Shown here: positions 18,379 through 27,877 of the stretch, in pieces
How positions within the stretch are numbered: position 1 is the stretch's first letter
Layout of the letters: every line of letters starts with the position of its first letter
Source of the DNA: a virus
Length of the DNA: 48,837 nt
Strand: one strand, 5' to 3'
Virus record (IMG/VR): IMGVR_UViG_3300035430_000295
Location: 1-48,837 of that record
The notes under the pieces: model-generated
Database searches by the model: none
What the model was told of the DNA's origin: nothing
The model's input: only the letters and a program-made list of their open reading frames with translations
Program-made: the position numbers and the translations under genes

Positions 18379-21300
18379 ATGCCACAGGAACTAAATCTTA
18401 ACGTTTCTCCTTATTACGACGATTTTGATCGCGATAACGATTACTATCGCGTTCTATTCAAACCAGGTTATCCTGTTCAGGCAAGAGAACTTACGACTAT
18501 GCAGTCTATACTGCAAAGTCAAGTAGAAAAGTTAAGCGACCACTTTTTTAAAGAAGGTAAAGCAATAACTGGTGGTGAAATTCAATATTATGAAAAATAC
18601 CCATGTGTTATGGTTGATGATTCCTTTAATGGAAAGTCAATCTTAGAATATGCTGCTGATATATTAGATGAAATTATTGTTGGTGAACAATCTGGAGTTA
18701 GAGCAAAAGTAGATGCATATCTTCCAGGATCTAGTTCTGAGAGAGGATTTGATACTTACTACGTTAGTTACTTAAGTTCTGACTCATCATCTTCTCAATT
18801 TACTGGATTTATTTCGGGAGAAAATTTATTACTAGAAGATGGAATTCAGACTACGAATAACTTAGCTGATGAAACTGAAGATGACGATCCAGATGCTGCA
18901 ATTCAAGAAAATTTAGAAAATTTAGTTGTATTCTCAGCAGGAGCTCCATTTGCAAGATGTATTGAAGAAAATCCAAATGAAATTGGATCTGCAGTTCATA
19001 TTAATGATGGTGTTTACTATATTAGGGGACACTATGTAGAATCAGAAAAAAAGACTTTACTGTTAGATCAATATGATGATAAACCATCTTATCGAGTTGG
19101 TTTGATTGTTACCGAAGAAATTGCAACTCATTTGCAAGATGAAGATCTTCTCGATAACGCGCAAGGATTTTCAAACTTTACAGCACCAGGTGCTGATAGA
19201 TTACAAATTGAAATTGACCTTGTAAAAATTGATCTAGATGAAGATGAAGATGTAGAAAACTTTATCGAATTAATGGTAGTCCAGAATGGACAGATCATTA
19301 ATAATAATAGAAGTACAGCATATACAGAAAACGATAAGTATGTTGCAGAAAGAGTTGATGATATTGCTGGAGACTTCTATGTAGAACAACCTGAAGTGGA
19401 AGTTTTAGAAGCTCTAAATGATAAAGAAGGTAATGATGGTTTATATAACCCTGGAGAACTTACTCAACAGGGATCGCAACCCACAGATGATATGGGAATC
19501 TATAAGATTTCCCCATTTAAAGCTTATGTTAATGGTTTCCAAATTGAAATGAATTCTCCAACATATTTGGAGTTTGATAAACCAAGAGAAACTAAAGAAT
19601 TTTTAAATCAACAATTAGCATACAGCTCTGGTCCTACACTAGCAATAAACAGAGTATATGGATATCCTACTTTAGGTATTCAAACTACTTTCTATGTTAC
19701 TCTTAGAGATACAAGAGTAGGATCTGCTCAATCAGTGGCCTCTGGTAAAGAAATTGGTGTTGCTAGAGTGTATGACTATGAATTAGAAGATGGGACATAC
19801 GATCGTTCCAATTTAGATGTAAACACTTGGGACCTTACATTATATGATGTTAGACCTTATGTTGAATTTGAACTCAATGAACCGGTAACGCTAACAACCC
19901 CTATTCATATTAGAGGAAAAGCTACTGGGTCAACAGCACACTTAAGATTTGATGTTAACAATTCTGGTATTGCTACCGCCTATGAGGTAAAAGGTAGATT
20001 TAACGTAGGTGAAAAATTAATTTTTAATGGAGTAGAAGAAAATACAAGAGTTGTAAAAGATGCAACTGAATTTGGAATCAATAAAGTAAGATCAGTCCAT
20101 GCTCAAAATGCTAATGGAACTTACTTTAGTGCGGATACCGTACTTGATGCTTCTGAAGAAATTCCAGAACCAGGTTTAAATGTAAATATAACTGCTGCAA
20201 ATGGTGGTATTTCAACTGTAAGTGTTGCAAACTTTAATTTAGATAAAGTATTTAATGTTGGCGATCTTATATCATATACAAATAATTTAGATCCGGAAAT
20301 TGTAACTTACAATAGAGTTACACAGGTAGCTGCAACTAATATGAGAATTGAGGCAATTACCTCAGTTACAGGTATTTGTGCAGGTGGTCTTCCAACTTCT
20401 ACAGTACAAGCTACAGATTTCCAAAAAATTGAAGCAGAAATTGAAACTTCTGATGATAATACTCTTTATACAGAATTTCCAAAAGACGTTGTTTCAAATG
20501 TAAATCTTGAAGATTCTACTATTGTTGTTAGAAAAACATATAATGTAACAATTACTGGTAATCAAACAAACGCTATACAATCTGGAACTGATTTTACCTT
20601 CCTTCCATTCACTGCGGGAAGATATATTCTAACAAGAAATGATGGCTCTCTTGAAGAATTAACTTCAGACAAGTTTAGTTTCAATGGATCATCTACACAA
20701 CTGACCCTAAAAGGTCTTGGATCCGATACTACAGGTGTTCTTGTTGCAACTTGTAATAAGACTAATAACGCATCTAAAGTAAAGATAAGAAATAGAATTG
20801 AATCTCTTATCATTGATAAATCAAAACTTGTTCAGTCTGGTGTTGGTGGAACAACATTAAATGATGGATTGGAATATGGAAATTATCCATATGGTACTAG
20901 GGTGCAGGATAGAGAAATCTCTCTAATGAGACCCGATGTTATCGAGATCTTAGGAATCTTTGAATCCGATAACACTGCGGAACCAGATGTTAAAAAAATG
21001 GAATTCACCGAATTCTCTGGTCCAACTCAGTCTACGAATGACATAATCATTGGAGAAAGATTTGAGGGTGCAACTAGCGAAGCTATCGGTATTGTAGTTG
21101 AAAAAATCAATAATACTACCATTGGTTTTATTCCAGCAAACGATGATGCATTTGATGAAGTTAATGAGACGATTACATTTAAAGAGTCTGGAATAACTTG
21201 CAAATTTGTAAAAGAATTTGGATCAGATTTAAACATCACAAGCAAATTTGATCTAGCAGATGGTTTTGAAGATACAATTTACGACTACGCTAGAATTGTA

Positions 21301-24300
21301 AGAAATAAAGATGCTAAAGAACCTAAGAGAAAATTAAAAATTATATACGAATACTGCACATATGATGATGCAGACACTGGAGACATTACAACAGTAAATT
21401 CGTATTCTAACTTTGATTATAAGGATATTCCAGAGACTGGAGATCTTCCTCATTCTGATATTATTGATATTAGACCAAGAGTTGATTTTTATAATGTAGT
21501 AGAAGGTGCTAGATCTCCATTTGAATTCTTCGGTAGAAAATTTGATGGAGATGGAAACTCTGCTGATCACATCTTAGCTTCTGATGAAACTATTACACTT
21601 GATTATTCAATTTATCTGGGAAGAGTTGATAAGATTTTCCTAGATGAAGCAGGTGTATTCCACAATGTTGAAGGTCCTAGTGCAGAAGATCCAGCACCTC
21701 CTGCAACAAAAGAAGATTCTATTGAAGTTGCTCAGATTATTCTCCCAGCATATCTTGAGGATATGGAAGATGCTAGCATTGAATTAGCGGACCACAAACG
21801 CTATACAATGGATGATATCGGAGACCTTGAGGACCGTATTAAGCATCTTGAGTATTATACATCGCTTAATCTTCTTGAGCAGAGTACTGCTAACATGAAG
21901 GTAACAGATGGTAATGGTCTTGATAGATATAAATCTGGTTTCTTTGTTGATGATTTTTCTGACGCAGAAAACCAATTAAAGATAACAAATCTTAAAAACT
22001 CTGTAGATACTGAAGAAGGAGAACTGAGAGCAGCTCCATATACTACTCAAATTGACCTAGAATTAGGTACATTCAACGCTTTGGGTATTGGAACTGATGT
22101 TGTTGATTCTGTTAGTGTTGATGCTGAATTTGATGATAATCTTATTGGTGAAAACATTAGACAAACTGGTAGAGTTATTACTCTTGACTATGATGAACAA
22201 ATTGAAATTCATCAACCATATGCAACTCAGAGTGTTCCAGTTAATACTATCGTTGATATATTCTATGAAGGTGAACTAGAACTTCAACCAGATTCTGATG
22301 CTTGGGTGCGTCAAAACTTAGGTGGAAGAAGAGTACGTGATGGAAGAGGTAAGTATTGGTTTACTAAGAGACAATGCAGAAAGATGAAATTTCATCCCAA
22401 CTGGGGTTGGGGTGGTGTTATCTGGAGAGATTGGAGACATCATTGGAGAGGAAGTATTCCTAAAGGTGGTAAACGTCGTGGTGGTGAATATAGTGGACAT
22501 ACTCCTGGCCGCAGAAAGAGACGGAGAAGAAGAAGAATTAGAGCGGTTGGAGGAACATTCAGACGGAAAAGTAGACTGAAGATCAATAGAAGGAAAAAGC
22601 ATAGAGTTAAGGTTAAGAGAGCTGGTCAAACAAGAAAAGGCTGGGGTAAGAGAACTATAAGCCGTAGATTCTGGGCAAGGAGAGTCCGAGTTGGTAAACG
22701 CTTCGTAGCGGTTGCTATTCGTAAGTGGATGCGGATGAGGAACATCCAATTCAAAGCAAGGAAAATGAAACCCAATACTAGGGTATGGCCTTTCTTTGAT
22801 GGCGTTCCAGTAATTAAGACTGTTACTCCCAAACTCATCGAAGTTAGGATGATTAGGGGAACGTTCCAGGTTGGTGAGCGTGTAACAAGTGCAAGAAGAA
22901 GACGATTCCGCAGAAGAGGAATTATCGCAGTCAAAGTAAGAAAGAAAAGAATCAGAGTTAGAGCTGTTAGAGGATGGCGTTGGGCAATGAGATTCTCTGG
23001 ACGTGTGTGTCCTATCAATCACAAAGAGGGTCCATTTACAAATCCACTAAAAGTATATGAGCAGAACCCATATACAAGAACAGCGATGCCTACAAGTTAT
23101 GCATCCAACTCTACAATTTTGAATATTGATACTTTTATTATGTCTCTCAAACAGAGAGGTAGATATTGGGGATTTATTAATGGAAAAATGCGTCTGAAAG
23201 GACGTACAAGTAAAGCAGTCTGTAGAGTTGTTCGTAAGAGACTCGTTACAGATGCTCAGGGTACTGTTGCAGGTTCATTCTTCCTTCCTGCAGCAGATGG
23301 TGTGAGAAAGAGAAAGTTTGGTTATGCATTTAGTGCCGGCAGAAAGACCTTTAGATTAGTTGACTCCCCAACTAACTCTGATGATCAAAAAGAAATCAGC
23401 ACAATGGCTGAGGATGAATTCACATGTGCAGGTACTGGTATTAAAAGAAAATGGTGGGTTAGAAGATGGAAGGTTAAAAGACCACGTAGGTGTACTAGAA
23501 GACCTAATGCACAGGTCGGAAGACCAAGAGTTCTTAGAAGATGTAGAAAAGGTAGAAAGAACCCAATTGTACCAGATCCGGGCGATCCAGATCCACAACC
23601 ACCAAGACCAGAACCACCACGTCCATGTCCAGATCCTAATGCATTAATTTTAATGCATGATGGTTCTCAGAAGAGAGCAGGAGATCTGGTGGTCGGTGAT
23701 ATGGTCAAAACATATCATGAAGATACTTTTGAATATGGCGATTATCCAGTTATTCATGCTTCTATTGTAGAAGATGTTGAAAAACTCAAGTTAACCTTTA
23801 GTGAAAGTGAAATAACTTGTTCAATTTACCACAAGTTCCGTGTTGGTGACTCTTGGAAAGAAGCCAAAGATATGGAAGTTGGTGATGAAGTTTCTGGACA
23901 AACATTGAATGAGATTGAAACTGTTGAAAATGGACAAGTTGTTCATATCACAGTTGAAGACGCTCATACTTATATTTCTGAGGGTTTACTTTCTCACAAC
24001 AAGAGACCACCCCGTCCAGAACCACCACCAGAAGATGGTCCCAAAGAAGAAGAAGAAGATCGGCCCAAACCTCCCCGTTGCAGACGCAAAGGAAAAGGTA
24101 AGAGACGTTGTGGTGGGCGTCCAAAGCCGCCAACTGACGTTGATCCTGGCAGACCGAGACCTGATCCCGAAGATCCGGAGGAAGAGGGTGAAACTGACAA
24201 AGCCGTACGCCGCCGACCAAGAAACAAACCTAAAGTTAAAACTACTAAGGTAAAATACGTCTTTGATAAGAAAGGAAGAGCACTTCCTGTCTGGTATGTT

Positions 24301-25071
24301 CCTTATACTGTTAAAAAGGGTAAAGACAAGGGTAAGACAAAGTATCTTAACTTCAACAAGATTAAGAAACTTGGTGGTAAGAAGGATGCTAAAAAAGCTT
24401 TCAAGGAATATGGTTATCCATTACCTCCCAAAAATTACCCAGGTAGAGGAAAACCATCTAGACCAACTGGAGGCAAAAAGAAATCAACTACGATTGCGAT
24501 TAAGCAAAATCGTAAAGGTGTGATGAAGGTTATTGATACCTCCAAGAAGGCAAGGAAACTCAATAGTAAGGGAATCAAGAGTAAAGTCCTCGACGTTATT
24601 AAACCAGGTGATAAGGATTATGGACATTACAACAAGGGTAAACCTCAACTTTGGAAGTATGGTGCAACACTTCTCGCTACACAACATAAGGAGGCAACTA
24701 GAAAAGTTACCAAGCGTGGTAATAAGAAGTTTGAAAAGAAAGGATTCCCAGTTGGTAAACTACCACTTAAGAATGGTAGTATAAGAAGATTCCAACCACG
24801 CCCATCTCCTGCACGGAGAAGATCACGTCCAAGACCTGCACCGAGACCTGCACCAAGAGCAAATAGGAGAAGGGCATTAGGTGGAGGTTATCCACGGAGA
24901 CCTAGCCCTAGACCTAGACCTAGACCCGCTCCACGTCCACCAAGACCACCAGGTAGACAGGCAAGACGAGGAGGAGCAAGAGGAGGAAGAAGAGGAAGAA
25001 GATCTGACTTCCAGTTGAAGACAAACATTATGATCATTCAAAACGCACTAAATAGAGTGTTTACAATTTGA
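18379..25071 (+). CDS. Chimeric DUF4815-type tail/baseplate protein with Arg/Lys-rich core, Hint domain and truncated S74 start (2230 aa)
   Basis: Residues 1-1308 are an acidic virion domain whose start (LNVSPYYDDFDRDNDYYRVL, then FKPGYPVQARELTTMQSILQ) is typical of DUF4815 proteins of T4-like cyanophages. Residues 1309-1728 are saturated with Arg and Lys but keep scaffold motifs (GVIWRDW; FKARKMKPNTRVWPFFDGV; MPTSYASNSTILNIDTFIMS; GTVAGSFFLPAADG; RLVDSPTNS). Residues 1750-1874 form a Hint domain with Cys1750, His1818 and the terminal His1873-Asn1874, followed by Lys. Residues 1875-2208 are a basic linker ending in Pro/Arg repeats. Residues 2209-2230 start an S74 domain (SDFQLKTN), which is then cut by a TGA. 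It follows gp8 by 6 nt with no promoter seen. It is probably a baseplate or fibre-attachment protein that processes itself. Processing is inferred and not shown. Confidence 0.85.
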   Translation: MPQELNLNVSPYYDDFDRDNDYYRVLFKPGYPVQARELTTMQSILQSQVEKLSDHFFKEGKAITGGEIQYYEKYPCVMVDDSFNGKSILEYAADILDEIIVGEQSGVRAKVDAYLPGSSSERGFDTYYVSYLSSDSSSSQFTGFISGENLLLEDGIQTTNNLADETEDDDPDAAIQENLENLVVFSAGAPFARCIEENPNEIGSAVHINDGVYYIRGHYVESEKKTLLLDQYDDKPSYRVGLIVTEEIATHLQDEDLLDNAQGFSNFTAPGADRLQIEIDLVKIDLDEDEDVENFIELMVVQNGQIINNNRSTAYTENDKYVAERVDDIAGDFYVEQPEVEVLEALNDKEGNDGLYNPGELTQQGSQPTDDMGIYKISPFKAYVNGFQIEMNSPTYLEFDKPRETKEFLNQQLAYSSGPTLAINRVYGYPTLGIQTTFYVTLRDTRVGSAQSVASGKEIGVARVYDYELEDGTYDRSNLDVNTWDLTLYDVRPYVEFELNEPVTLTTPIHIRGKATGSTAHLRFDVNNSGIATAYEVKGRFNVGEKLIFNGVEENTRVVKDATEFGINKVRSVHAQNANGTYFSADTVLDASEEIPEPGLNVNITAANGGISTVSVANFNLDKVFNVGDLISYTNNLDPEIVTYNRVTQVAATNMRIEAITSVTGICAGGLPTSTVQATDFQKIEAEIETSDDNTLYTEFPKDVVSNVNLEDSTIVVRKTYNVTITGNQTNAIQSGTDFTFLPFTAGRYILTRNDGSLEELTSDKFSFNGSSTQLTLKGLGSDTTGVLVATCNKTNNASKVKIRNRIESLIIDKSKLVQSGVGGTTLNDGLEYGNYPYGTRVQDREISLMRPDVIEILGIFESDNTAEPDVKKMEFTEFSGPTQSTNDIIIGERFEGATSEAIGIVVEKINNTTIGFIPANDDAFDEVNETITFKESGITCKFVKEFGSDLNITSKFDLADGFEDTIYDYARIVRNKDAKEPKRKLKIIYEYCTYDDADTGDITTVNSYSNFDYKDIPETGDLPHSDIIDIRPRVDFYNVVEGARSPFEFFGRKFDGDGNSADHILASDETITLDYSIYLGRVDKIFLDEAGVFHNVEGPSAEDPAPPATKEDSIEVAQIILPAYLEDMEDASIELADHKRYTMDDIGDLEDRIKHLEYYTSLNLLEQSTANMKVTDGNGLDRYKSGFFVDDFSDAENQLKITNLKNSVDTEEGELRAAPYTTQIDLELGTFNALGIGTDVVDSVSVDAEFDDNLIGENIRQTGRVITLDYDEQIEIHQPYATQSVPVNTIVDIFYEGELELQPDSDAWVRQNLGGRRVRDGRGKYWFTKRQCRKMKFHPNWGWGGVIWRDWRHHWRGSIPKGGKRRGGEYSGHTPGRRKRRRRRRIRAVGGTFRRKSRLKINRRKKHRVKVKRAGQTRKGWGKRTISRRFWARRVRVGKRFVAVAIRKWMRMRNIQFKARKMKPNTRVWPFFDGVPVIKTVTPKLIEVRMIRGTFQVGERVTSARRRRFRRRGIIAVKVRKKRIRVRAVRGWRWAMRFSGRVCPINHKEGPFTNPLKVYEQNPYTRTAMPTSYASNSTILNIDTFIMSLKQRGRYWGFINGKMRLKGRTSKAVCRVVRKRLVTDAQGTVAGSFFLPAADGVRKRKFGYAFSAGRKTFRLVDSPTNSDDQKEISTMAEDEFTCAGTGIKRKWWVRRWKVKRPRRCTRRPNAQVGRPRVLRRCRKGRKNPIVPDPGDPDPQPPRPEPPRPCPDPNALILMHDGSQKRAGDLVVGDMVKTYHEDTFEYGDYPVIHASIVEDVEKLKLTFSESEITCSIYHKFRVGDSWKEAKDMEVGDEVSGQTLNEIETVENGQVVHITVEDAHTYISEGLLSHNKRPPRPEPPPEDGPKEEEEDRPKPPRCRRKGKGKRRCGGRPKPPTDVDPGRPRPDPEDPEEEGETDKAVRRRPRNKPKVKTTKVKYVFDKKGRALPVWYVPYTVKKGKDKGKTKYLNFNKIKKLGGKKDAKKAFKEYGYPLPPKNYPGRGKPSRPTGGKKKSTTIAIKQNRKGVMKVIDTSKKARKLNSKGIKSKVLDVIKPGDKDYGHYNKGKPQLWKYGATLLATQHKEATRKVTKRGNKKFEKKGFPVGKLPLKNGSIRRFQPRPSPARRRSRPRPAPRPAPRANRRRALGGGYPRRPSPRPRPRPAPRPPRPPGRQARRGGARGGRRGRRSDFQLKTNIMIIQNALNRVFTI
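22303..23562 (+). other. Arg/Lys-saturated low-complexity region superimposed on a conserved virion domain
   Basis: The encoded residues 1309-1728 begin at WVRQNLGGRRVRDGRGKYW and contain runs such as GRRKRRRRRRIRA and ARRRRFRRRG. The upstream 1300 residues are acidic, so net charge flips abruptly at about 22303. Conserved non-basic motifs persist between the basic runs, so the frame is intact. Lys/Arg codons are mostly AGA, AAG, AAA and CGT. Confidence 0.85.
23626..24000 (+). other. Hint (bacterial intein-like, A-type BIL candidate) domain
   Basis: This 125-residue segment starts at Cys1750 (CPDPNALILMHDGSQKRAGD), the standard block A of Hint domains. Block B is T1813-C-S-I-Y-H1818-KF. The end, DAHTYISEGLLSHN, carries the F/G blocks with terminal His1873-Asn1874. 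Catalytic residues for the N-S acyl shift and Asn cyclisation are therefore present. The next residue is Lys1875 and not the Cys, Ser or Thr needed for standard intein splicing. That pattern matches A-type BIL domains, which can cleave or splice at non-nucleophile junctions. There is no room for a homing endonuclease. PPRPEPP occurs just before and just after the domain. Confidence 0.9.
24796..25002 (+). repeat. Pro/Arg-rich repetitive linker before the S74 start
   Basis: The encoded stretch is a string of RP, APR and RRG units (for example RPRPAPRPAPRANRRR and SPRPRPRPAPRPP). At DNA level it includes tandem CCTAGA hexamers near 24901-24925. It resembles flexible stalk linkers placed before intramolecular chaperone domains and is unusually basic here. 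Confidence 0.75.
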
Positions 25072-25079
25072 ACTATATT

Positions 25080-25334
25080 ATGACTTCCCTTTTGACTAAA
25101 GTATGTAAACTTAATGGAACACTCTATGAGTGGAAGGACGACATGAAAAAACATCATGGGAGAAAGGGTTATGAGTATGGACTCATAGCCCAGGAAGTTC
25201 AAAAAGAATTTCCTGAAATGGTATATAAGGAAGATGGGTATTTGTCTGTTGATTATATTCAGATGATACCTGTCTTGGTAGAAGCTATTAAAGAACTTAA
25301 AACAGAACTTGATACCCTTAAGGGCAATAAATAA
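25080..25334 (+). CDS. C-terminal part of an S74-type intramolecular chaperone domain, separate frame (84 aa)
   Basis: The frame encodes KLNGTLYEWKDD, GLIAQEVQKEFPEMV and DGYLSVDYIQMIPVLVEAIK. These are the characteristic core and C-terminal helices of the peptidase S74 / endosialidase chaperone domain. The beginning of the same domain, with the Ser-Lys dyad context SDFQLK, lies at the end of the 2230-aa ORF in another frame. The two parts are offset by -1 and overlap at 25068. The ORF could start at the ATG at 25080 or at a TTG at 25068 inside the upstream stop region. It could be read by frameshifting, expressed as a trans-acting chaperone, or be the remnant of a disrupted gene. Its C-terminal Leu/Lys helix is intact. 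Confidence 0.8.
   Translation: MTSLLTKVCKLNGTLYEWKDDMKKHHGRKGYEYGLIAQEVQKEFPEMVYKEDGYLSVDYIQMIPVLVEAIKELKTELDTLKGNK
25326..25333 (+). promoter_or_regulatory. T4-type late promoter (AATAAATA)
   Basis: AATAAATA overlaps the TAA stop of the S74 ORF and lies 36 nt before the ATG of the 835-aa gene. It gives that gene its own late transcription start, which fits its separation from the upstream half. Confidence 0.6.
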
Positions 25335-25369: not shown

Positions 25370-27877
25370 ATGTCAGATAAACTAATTGATCCGTTAGCGC
25401 AAACATTCTATGTTGATAATCCCAAAGGGATTTTCGCAACTTCTGTTGATATTTACTTTTATGAAGGTGATTCTCGTTTACCGGTTTCTGTAGAACTAAG
25501 ACCTACAGTAAATGGAGTTCCATCGTCAGCAGACATTTATCCATTTTCTCAAATTACATTAGAACCAAGTGATGTAGTCACAAGTGCTGATGCGAATCTT
25601 CCAACTAACTTTAAATTTAAATCACCAGTATTTTTAAAGGGAGAAACATTTCATTCTCTTGTCGTTACCTGTAATAGTAAAGACTATTCGGTATGGGTTG
25701 CAAAGATGGGAGAACCCGACGTTACCAAAGCAAATCAAGACGATTCTAAGACAGTATTTGTTTCAGCAAACCCAAACTCTGGAGTATTCTTTAGATCTCA
25801 GAATGGTGCAACATGGACACCATCAGAAAGAGAGGATATGAAGTTTACTCTTTATAGAGCTAACTTCTTAGAAAATTCGGGAAATATAAACTTCTATAAT
25901 CCAGAGTTATCCGTAGGAAACGATCAAGTTTCTATTTTGGATAATGATGCATTTGAAATGGAATCTAGACAAGTGAGATTACTTTTAAGTGGTGGATTAA
26001 ATGAAGTTGGATTTGCTACTGGTGTTACGGTAAAGCAGGAAAATTCTAACGTTACGGGAAATTATATTTCAAATGCTGGTGCCGCCACATCACTATCAAT
26101 CTTTAATGCAGGTATTGGACTCACACCGTCCATTGGAGGTTTAACATATTTTGATGTAGCATTAACAAAAGTTACAGGAGAAGGAAGAAACGCCACTTGC
26201 AATTTAACTGTTCAAAGTGGAGTTGCTGTTGGTGCAACTATTGTTGCTGGTGGATCTGGATATCAAGTTGGAGACCTGGTAACAGCCAATACAGTTGGAT
26301 CAGGACTGGGAAGAAACCTAAGATTATCAGTTGGTGCGCTTGGAGATATAAACGAAATTATCGTTGATGATATTCAGGGAAATTTCAAAACTGGTGCTGG
26401 AAGTACTCTTACTTACGAAAACTCTAGTGGGATAACTACTCAAATAAATGCTTCTTCTGGAGGATTAACAGTTAGCGATACTACAGTTATACATGATGGT
26501 TTGCATATCAAGGTGAATCATCCAAATCATGGAATGTATGCTCCAGAGAGTGTTGTTTCAATTGATGATGTTGATCCAGATCATCCCAATGTAGATACAA
26601 CAGCAGACATTGATGAAGATTCTACAGCTCCAATTCCTTTAGATGATATACTTATCGATGATGAAACTGGATTGAGTATTTTTGCTAATTTTGAAAATGT
26701 TGGTGTATCTTCAACAAATCCAGGATACATTCAAATTGAGGAAGAAATAATTGCATACACTGGAATTGATGGACTTAATCTAACAGGAATTACAAGAGAA
26801 ATTGATGATACTCCAGGATCTTCTTATGAAGCGGGAGTTGACGTTGTTAAATATGAACTTAACGGAGTTTCTCTCAGAAGAATCAATAAAGTTCATGAAT
26901 TGCAAGATGCAACCGTAAATAATCCAATCGATTTAGATTATTATCATATAAGAATTGATCCTCAAGAGTCTGGAATAGATAGATCAGATAGTCCTTTTGG
27001 ATATCCAGATATGCACTTCAGAGAAACTAAGTCTAGCGGTGGTGATGATATTACCGCTACTCAGAATATTCAATATGAGATTATCGACCCAGAAATTTCT
27101 GCAACAGAAGTTAATGGTACTGATGTAGAACTTAATTTAAGAACTATAACTGGAAGAAGTGTTGGTGGTACTCAAGAAGCTTACCTTGCTGAAGACTTTG
27201 AAAAAATTTCTAGTGAGGAAGAGCATTTCTTATCTTCTCCCAGAATAATTTGTTCTCGTATTAATGAAACAGAACTTCTTGATGGAATTGATGGAATTGA
27301 AGGAAATAAATCTCTCAATATATCCGTCAATTTAACTACAACGACTCCACTACTATCACCAATGATAGATTTGGACCGTTGTTCTGTCATCTTAATCGGT
27401 AATAGAATGAATAAACCTATTACTGATTACGCTAATGATGAGCGTACTGCAGACCTAGAAAATGACCCCCATGCTTTTGTTTATGCTACTAGACCTATAA
27501 CTTTAGAGAATGCCGCGACATCTCTTCAGGTTTATGTTACTGCGTATGTGAATACTACTAGTGATTTGAGAGCCTTCTATGCTATTGATGATGACGGTAA
27601 GGAAGCCTTAATTTATTATCCTTTCCCGGGATTTGATAATATTGATAATCAAGGAAATGTTGAAGACTTCGCTAAATGTAATGGAACTCCAGATGAAAAA
27701 CTATCAAAAACTGATAGTAAAGGATTCCAATCGGACGACTTAGACTTCCAAGAGTTGAAATTTAGTATCAATAAACTCCCATCTTTTAGAGCTTTTGGTA
27801 TAAAATTATGTGCATCTACAGAAGATACAACGTATCCTGTTAGATTGAAAGATCTTAGAGTAATCGCGCTTGCTTAA
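25370..27877 (+). CDS. Virion structural protein, C-terminal half of the split DUF4815-type protein (835 aa)
   Basis: The N-terminus (DPLAQTFYVDNPKGIFATSV, then DIYFYEGDSRLPVSVELRP and VNGVPSS) is a block that, as I recall, is internal in cyanophage DUF4815 proteins, after the SPTNS-containing region. Here it starts a separate CDS. The middle includes a GGSGY repeat (IVAGGSGYQVGDLV) and a YIQIEEEIIAYTGIDGL module. The C-terminus (FRAFGIKLCASTEDTTYPVR, then LKDLRVIALA) is the usual end of this protein type. It is acidic, with no signal peptide. It is likely a baseplate or distal tail component acting beside the 2230-aa protein. Homology to internal parts of the longer family is from memory. 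Confidence 0.8.
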   Translation: MSDKLIDPLAQTFYVDNPKGIFATSVDIYFYEGDSRLPVSVELRPTVNGVPSSADIYPFSQITLEPSDVVTSADANLPTNFKFKSPVFLKGETFHSLVVTCNSKDYSVWVAKMGEPDVTKANQDDSKTVFVSANPNSGVFFRSQNGATWTPSEREDMKFTLYRANFLENSGNINFYNPELSVGNDQVSILDNDAFEMESRQVRLLLSGGLNEVGFATGVTVKQENSNVTGNYISNAGAATSLSIFNAGIGLTPSIGGLTYFDVALTKVTGEGRNATCNLTVQSGVAVGATIVAGGSGYQVGDLVTANTVGSGLGRNLRLSVGALGDINEIIVDDIQGNFKTGAGSTLTYENSSGITTQINASSGGLTVSDTTVIHDGLHIKVNHPNHGMYAPESVVSIDDVDPDHPNVDTTADIDEDSTAPIPLDDILIDDETGLSIFANFENVGVSSTNPGYIQIEEEIIAYTGIDGLNLTGITREIDDTPGSSYEAGVDVVKYELNGVSLRRINKVHELQDATVNNPIDLDYYHIRIDPQESGIDRSDSPFGYPDMHFRETKSSGGDDITATQNIQYEIIDPEISATEVNGTDVELNLRTITGRSVGGTQEAYLAEDFEKISSEEEHFLSSPRIICSRINETELLDGIDGIEGNKSLNISVNLTTTTPLLSPMIDLDRCSVILIGNRMNKPITDYANDERTADLENDPHAFVYATRPITLENAATSLQVYVTAYVNTTSDLRAFYAIDDDGKEALIYYPFPGFDNIDNQGNVEDFAKCNGTPDEKLSKTDSKGFQSDDLDFQELKFSINKLPSFRAFGIKLCASTEDTTYPVRLKDLRVIALA

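Follow-up and report, generated by a model that had tools for sequence, protein, structure and literature searches.

Inteins and BIL domains have mostly been discussed for enzymes and for bacterial surface and toxin proteins. In the scheme proposed for A-type BIL domains, Cys1 forms a thioester and the terminal Asn cyclises, with cleavage as the dominant outcome and splicing by means of a freed amine (PMC4031507; PMC5874633), and the length of BIL domains is given as 130–155 aa (PMC9185962). The BIL domain of C. thermocellum (2lwy) combines the Hint fold with Cys1 and a C-terminal His-Asn pair, needs no Cys, Ser or Thr at the +1 position and is inserted in variable regions. BIL2 of BUBL1 from Tetrahymena (6y75, 6tmm) resides in a eukaryotic polyubiquitin locus and makes an isopeptide with a Lys located in the downstream ubiquitin-like domain (PMC8616854). 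Here we describe a Hint domain of the same catalytic layout in a virion protein of an uncultured T4-like phage, encoded within a 48,837-nt record (hereafter the window), which differs from 2lwy in its phage host protein, in the conserved Lys at +1 and in its apparent exchange as an exact cassette.

The Hint domain of the window comprises 125 aa, compared with 109–164 aa among its relatives. The original prediction, made from the letters alone, had proposed a Hint/BIL domain without Cys, Ser or Thr at +1 in a tail-region protein, with Cys1750, His1818 and a terminal His1873-Asn1874 pair followed by Lys1875; all of these residues are found in the 2230-aa open reading frame (ORF), those of the domain itself are conserved across 38 homologues, and the catalytic positions are all present (Table 1). 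The T1813xxxxH1818 motif that was proposed alongside them is literally present, but does not represent block B of the Hint domain, which is S1815xxH1818 and aligns with the TxxH of the family, ruling out T1813 as the block-B residue. The alignment column of S1815 contains Thr 27 times, Ser nine times and Ala twice, whereas H1818 is invariant. The ratio dN/dS is 0.09–0.39 among Hint copies related to that of the window, and Cys1, the block-B His1818, His1863 and the His-Asn pair are conserved under purifying selection. When compared with profiles, as had been suggested, the excised domain scores above the cut-off of TIGR01443 intein_Cterm (19.0 versus 15.6), at the cut-off of PT-HINT (PF07591; 27.7 versus 27.7 with short flanks, 27.2 with longer flanks) and below that of the Intein_splicing profile. 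Six-frame searches of the whole record with PF14890 and PF07591 returned no match because the domain is divergent, although short excised queries do score, and the Hint domain has no match in PHROG.

Table 1. Features of the Hint-bearing locus, in window coordinates.
Feature	Position	Strand	Supporting observation
Host gene, 2230-aa DUF4815 (PF16075)/phrog_358 virion protein	18379..25071	+	PF16075 173 bits; phrog_358 1212 bits
Very basic region before Hint, residues 1311-1728	22309..23562	+	net +109 in 418 aa
Pro-rich linker upstream of Hint, residues 1729-1749	23563..23625	+	11 Pro in 21 aa
Hint domain, residues 1750-1874	23626..24000	+	AlphaFold2 pLDDT; similarity to BIL and intein structures in the PDB
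Cys1750 (position 1), candidate N-terminal nucleophile	23626..23628	+	C in 38/38 aligned Hints
Block B, S1815-I-Y-H1818	23821..23832	+	H1818 (codon start 23830) 38/38; S/T at 1815 36/38
His1863, block F histidine	23965..23967	+	H in 35/38 aligned Hints
His1873-Asn1874 (codon starts 23995, 23998), C-terminal pair for putative Asn cyclisation	23995..24000	+	H, N in 38/38
Lys1875 (+1)	24001..24003	+	Lys+1 in 52/66 distinct phage copies versus 2/18 cellular
Block common to window and L002, apparent horizontally exchanged cassette	23626..24005	+	Hint dS; DNA alignment borders
Downstream Pro- and Glu/Arg-rich linker, residues 1876-1950	24004..24228	+	
Basic C-terminal domain (KVKYVFDKKGRALPVWYVPYT...), residues 1951-2140	24229..24798	+	also in Hint-less L033
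Separate ORF with remainder of S74 chaperone domain	25080..25334	+	PF13884 38.5 bits, profile 16-58 of 58
Following gene, encoding the DUF4815 C-terminal half	25370..27877	+	fused in other phages

The AlphaFold2 model of the domain, calculated from an alignment of 38 window and locus sequences, has a mean pLDDT of 92.9, with low confidence for the final residues. The original prediction had named a non-Hint fold as its refutation; the model instead places the predicted fold beyond reasonable doubt as that of Hint. The nearest solved structures identified by Foldseek are Tetrahymena BIL2, which ranks first (E 1e-10, 21% identity), together with the C. thermocellum BIL domain. Among the 50 matches listed by VIA-align, BIL, intein and hedgehog Hint structures superimpose with Z of 14.7–20.3 over 118–138 residues, including Z 18.8 to 2lwy over 127 residues, Z 18–20 to class 1 mini-inteins such as Ssp DnaB and gp41-1, and Z 17.6 to the hedgehog structure 1at0. 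Because these Z values are tied, the fold alone cannot tell a BIL domain from an intein.

The assignment to a class draws on features other than the fold. As in A-type BIL domains, the Hint fold is accompanied by Cys1, by His-Asn and by a residue at +1 other than Cys, Ser or Thr, and the site is a variable Pro-rich linker that is Hint-less in the relatives L032 and L033. Class 1 mini-inteins (Ssp DnaB, gp41-1) share the fold and the N- and C-terminal catalytic residues with the window, but they need Cys, Ser or Thr at +1 and occupy conserved sites of enzymes, whereas the window has Lys1875 and a variable linker. A plain intein with Cys, Ser or Thr at +1 is ruled out; enzyme inteins recovered in the same searches have Cys or Thr at this position. 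Hedgehog Hog domains are also distinct, since the Hint domain of the window is not followed by a sterol-recognition region only, but by 356 Pro/Arg/Lys-rich residues that end in the start of an S74 domain. Phage Hints are already listed without function as phrog_21587 and as UniProt ‘Hint domain containing protein’ entries of uncultured phages, and some of the relatives found match phrog_21587 or its structural neighbours.

DUF4815/phrog_358 constitutes the N-terminal body of the host protein and is common in T4-like cyanophages. Baseplate wedge genes are located upstream, and head-tail adaptor, head closure and sheath-stabilizer (neck) genes downstream; judged solely from this gene order, a baseplate or tail position of the host protein is likely. 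The net charge is −129 for residues 1–1310, +109 for residues 1311–1728 and +74 for residues 1951–2230. The Hint domain had been thought to sit exactly between charge-opposed modules, which does not hold, as strongly basic regions flank it on both sides, and a charge border as the cleavage site is ruled out because the larger neighbours of the Hint are both basic. The region corresponding to residues 1311–1728 has a median charge of about −6 in 92 related ORFs, compared with +109 in the window; the highest charges in this set all occur in carriers of window-type Hints. A Pfam search of window positions 24163–24800, where a toxin domain would be expected behind a PT-HINT domain, found no family. 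Of the Pro/Arg-S74 part that was predicted to follow the Hint, the S74 domain is only begun in the host ORF, the end of which contains just the first ~22 S74 residues (SDFQLKTNIMIIQNALNRVFTI). The ORF with the remainder starts at an ATG ~10 nt or less from the host stop and in another frame, the split S74 domain spanning window positions 25006–25334. This arrangement recurs in the relatives L001, L002, L003, L035 and L051 and thus does not reflect a sequencing slip.

The product of the gene that follows (25370–27877) aligns to phrog_358 positions 1421–2055 and, across 889 columns, shares 36.8% identity with the corresponding C-terminal half of the fused L004 protein. Among readable relatives, 39 were called fused and 20 carry the C-terminal half as an ORF of its own; such split genes in many relatives indicate that the linker tolerates a break. 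L004 and L092 have fused genes and carry a Hint, which in both lies within the linker, ahead of the motif DPLAQ(T/S)F with which the C-terminal half starts, such that cleavage there would yield approximately the products of gene fission elsewhere. In the window the C-terminal half is already a separate gene, and Hint cleavage would therefore release only the piece comprising the basic linker and the start of S74. Among 75 non-redundant DUF4815 ORFs long enough to show a Hint, 13 contain one that starts 430–462 aa past the DUF4815 marker. These carriers belong to at least two Hint lineages, with a single origin being rejected (p-AU 1e-28), and either the Hint is useful at this linker or this is the sole linker that tolerates a Hint. 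The DUF4815 protein of L003 bears two tandem window-type Hints (L003:4195-5085), both with intact catalytic residues and HNK endings.

The DNA of the Hint domain has a history distinct from that of the surrounding gene. Between the window and L002, dS is 0.13 for the Hint, compared with 1.12 for the body, 1.70 for the basic region and 1.22 downstream, a contrast of a size that is not seen between the window and either L001 or L003. The near-identical block extends from the Cys1 codon to just after CAC AAC AAG AG, that is, through His-Asn-Lys and most of the next codon. Over 125 non-independent pairs that were picked for divergent flanks, codon identity is 0.79 at −1, 0.99 at Cys1, 0.99 at +1 and 0.52 at +2, the value at −1 indicating that the upstream border of the cassette is softer in some pairs. 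L032 retains ~84% DNA identity over the rest of the gene and has no Hint in the linker, although its contig contains frameshifts that make the detail of the linker uncertain; a search of this 86-kb contig for a Hint outside the linker did not find one. The Hint is also absent from L033, which has 59% protein identity in the DUF4815 region. On these sequence comparisons, the Hint domain is evidently mobile between phages as a precise cassette. HNH_3, GIY-YIG and LAGLIDADG_3 have no match in the 48.8-kb record, and a homing endonuclease of its own from these families is rejected within this record; as the record may be incomplete, mobility in trans is possible. Seven Hint queries against the cultured-phage isolate collection found no close relative above 60% identity and only more distant Hints, and the window-type family is, as far as these collections indicate, visible mainly in metagenomes.

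Lys occupies +1 in 52 of the 66 distinct phage copies for which both ends are present, followed by Ile and Leu (four each), compared with two of 18 cellular copies, the others having Ala, Glu, Gly, Ser, Asp, Ile, Gln or Thr (Fisher p 2e-7, which is overstated because the copies are related). Close relatives of the window Hint have Lys+1 in all cases. The patterns used to scan the contigs were peptides from the N-terminal or central part of the domain and did not contain the C-terminal motif. Both Lys codons are used at +1, and therefore the constraint acts on the protein. In a tree of 54 representatives, in which branches are long and single placements need caution, the phage copies with Lys+1 fall into more than one clade: five changes are required, at least three of them forced by supported branches, and a single clade is rejected (p-AU 3e-26). 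HNK forms the very end, or nearly so, of several proteins (L218, L219, L225, L232 and L234), which argues that Lys belongs functionally to the domain and not to a downstream extein. Among 36 phage representatives, Lys is at +1 in 25 and at +2 in six. Hints located at or near the C-terminus with HN-(I/L)-K and a short tail, which places Lys at +2, are observed in L007, L008, L166, L216, L243 and L252; their hosts are phage or prophage proteins, and those of L008 and L216 match tail protein families.

We suggest, with a probability of roughly 0.55, that the domain works as an autoprocessing cassette resembling A-type BIL domains, by which the chain is cut, and on occasion perhaps joined again, at a break-tolerant linker. 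Following translation, the domain would fold and Cys1750 would undergo an N-to-S acyl shift at the junction with Pro1749, assisted by His1818, while Asn1874 would cyclise with the assistance of His1863 and His1873. The chain would thereby be broken before Lys1875 and/or after Pro1749, so that the body and the C-terminal part would mainly end up as separate pieces; the freed amine of Lys1875 might also ligate the flanks to some extent, as a minor product. Cleavage at one or both junctions is to be expected because the residues of the A-type BIL scheme are all present and conserved at dN/dS of 0.09–0.39; with the catalytic positions complete and Cys, Ser and Thr absent from +1, cleavage at either end or nucleophile-free splicing is what the chemistry predicts. 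We infer, as three separate points, that the Hint would be active in infected cells, that cleavage would exceed ligation and that the virion would benefit. The observed basis for this reading comprises the motifs, the predicted fold, purifying selection, mobility, recurrent capture at the linker and the conservation of Lys+1, from which the window Hint appears to be real, mobile, probably active and A-type-BIL-like.

Three observations run against this autoprocessing reading. The invariant Lys+1 is not predicted by a simple BIL model, arrays of four Hints with degenerate copies suggest that some copies may be non-catalytic, and the C-terminal half of the window protein is already encoded separately, which would limit the product released by cleavage to the basic linker and S74 start. 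The four-Hint arrays, with their poly-Pro spacers and with His-Asn missing from copy 1 and Cys1 from copy 2, would fit a folded spacer or display bead, as would the divergent Hint-like segment that follows the typical Hint at the C-terminus in L012 and L013; such a bead would be a stable Hint fold between Pro-rich stretches that no longer processes the protein. We consider this distinctly unlikely for the window, as Cys1, the block-B and block-F histidines and His-Asn persist here and, despite large divergence, in almost all Hints that occur singly, and dN/dS is far lower than 1.

A doubtful, though somewhat better placed, alternative is that the Hint excises itself and joins the two halves of the linker via the freed alpha-amine of Lys1875 in a BIL-type reaction, which would make it a selfish mini-intein that is almost silent and has no endonuclease of its own. 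The borders of the mobile block, which lie near the splice points plus one Lys, are consistent with this, as is the conservation of the residues for both half-reactions, and A-type BIL domains are capable of such splicing, but cleavage dominates in them (PMC4031507). Moreover, Cys, Ser and Thr are absent from +1, the Hint resides in a linker where lost continuity is tolerated, no endonuclease family searched for matches the 48.8-kb record, and splicing is impossible for the Hints that end at HNK, where only cleavage or transfer on the N-terminal side could matter. Transfer of the Cys1-thioester acyl group to the side-chain amine of Lys+1 or another Lys, generating an isopeptide or cross-linked virion protein, would make sense of the prevalence of Lys+1, encoded by either Lys codon, in phage copies of different Hint lineages, of the drop in codon identity from +1 to +2 and of the Lys at +2 in the six further representatives, and Tetrahymena BIL2 provides a precedent for Lys isopeptide formation (PMC8616854). 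For phages, however, such chemistry is pure conjecture, and it appears highly improbable: the reacting Lys of BIL2 lies in a downstream domain rather than at +1, Asn cyclisation releases the Lys at +1, and the role of Lys might be no more than to promote Asn cyclisation or folding.

The open-access literature yielded no account of a Hint domain in DUF4815 proteins or in the tail proteins of cyanophages, most subscription papers lying outside this search. The surprising parts are the host context, the cassette mobility and Lys+1: Hint cassettes appear to enter one tail-protein linker repeatedly and show a bias towards lysine that is not foreseen by present BIL models. If active, such domains could provide maturation or cross-linking of tail proteins without a protease. 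It is a long shot that Lys+1 is a working part of a mobile phage Hint family and takes the N-terminal thioester on its amine to yield branched or cross-linked virion proteins; were this true, the conserved HNK ending, also found in proteins whose final residue is this Lys, would point to a novel Hint mechanism that was gained more than once in phage structural proteins.

Hints also occur in other phage contexts. The phage protein encoded at L202:4345-7821, next to a tail-fibre gene, contains a tandem array of four Hints with poly-Pro between them, of which copy 1 is without the terminal His-Asn and copy 2 without Cys1; four-Hint proteins are likewise found in L201 and in several of L203–L215. 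A typical Hint with poly-Pro behind it precedes another Hint-like segment in L012 (10538-11008) and in the terminal part of the L013 ORF; this second segment (GGGCVHVDSY...HHN) is highly divergent and matches no Pfam family. In the cultured Ruegeria phage vB_RpoS-V18 (L250:5001-5414), a Hint in the tail tape measure protein ends in HHN followed by Thr at +1, which corresponds to the layout of an ordinary mini-intein.
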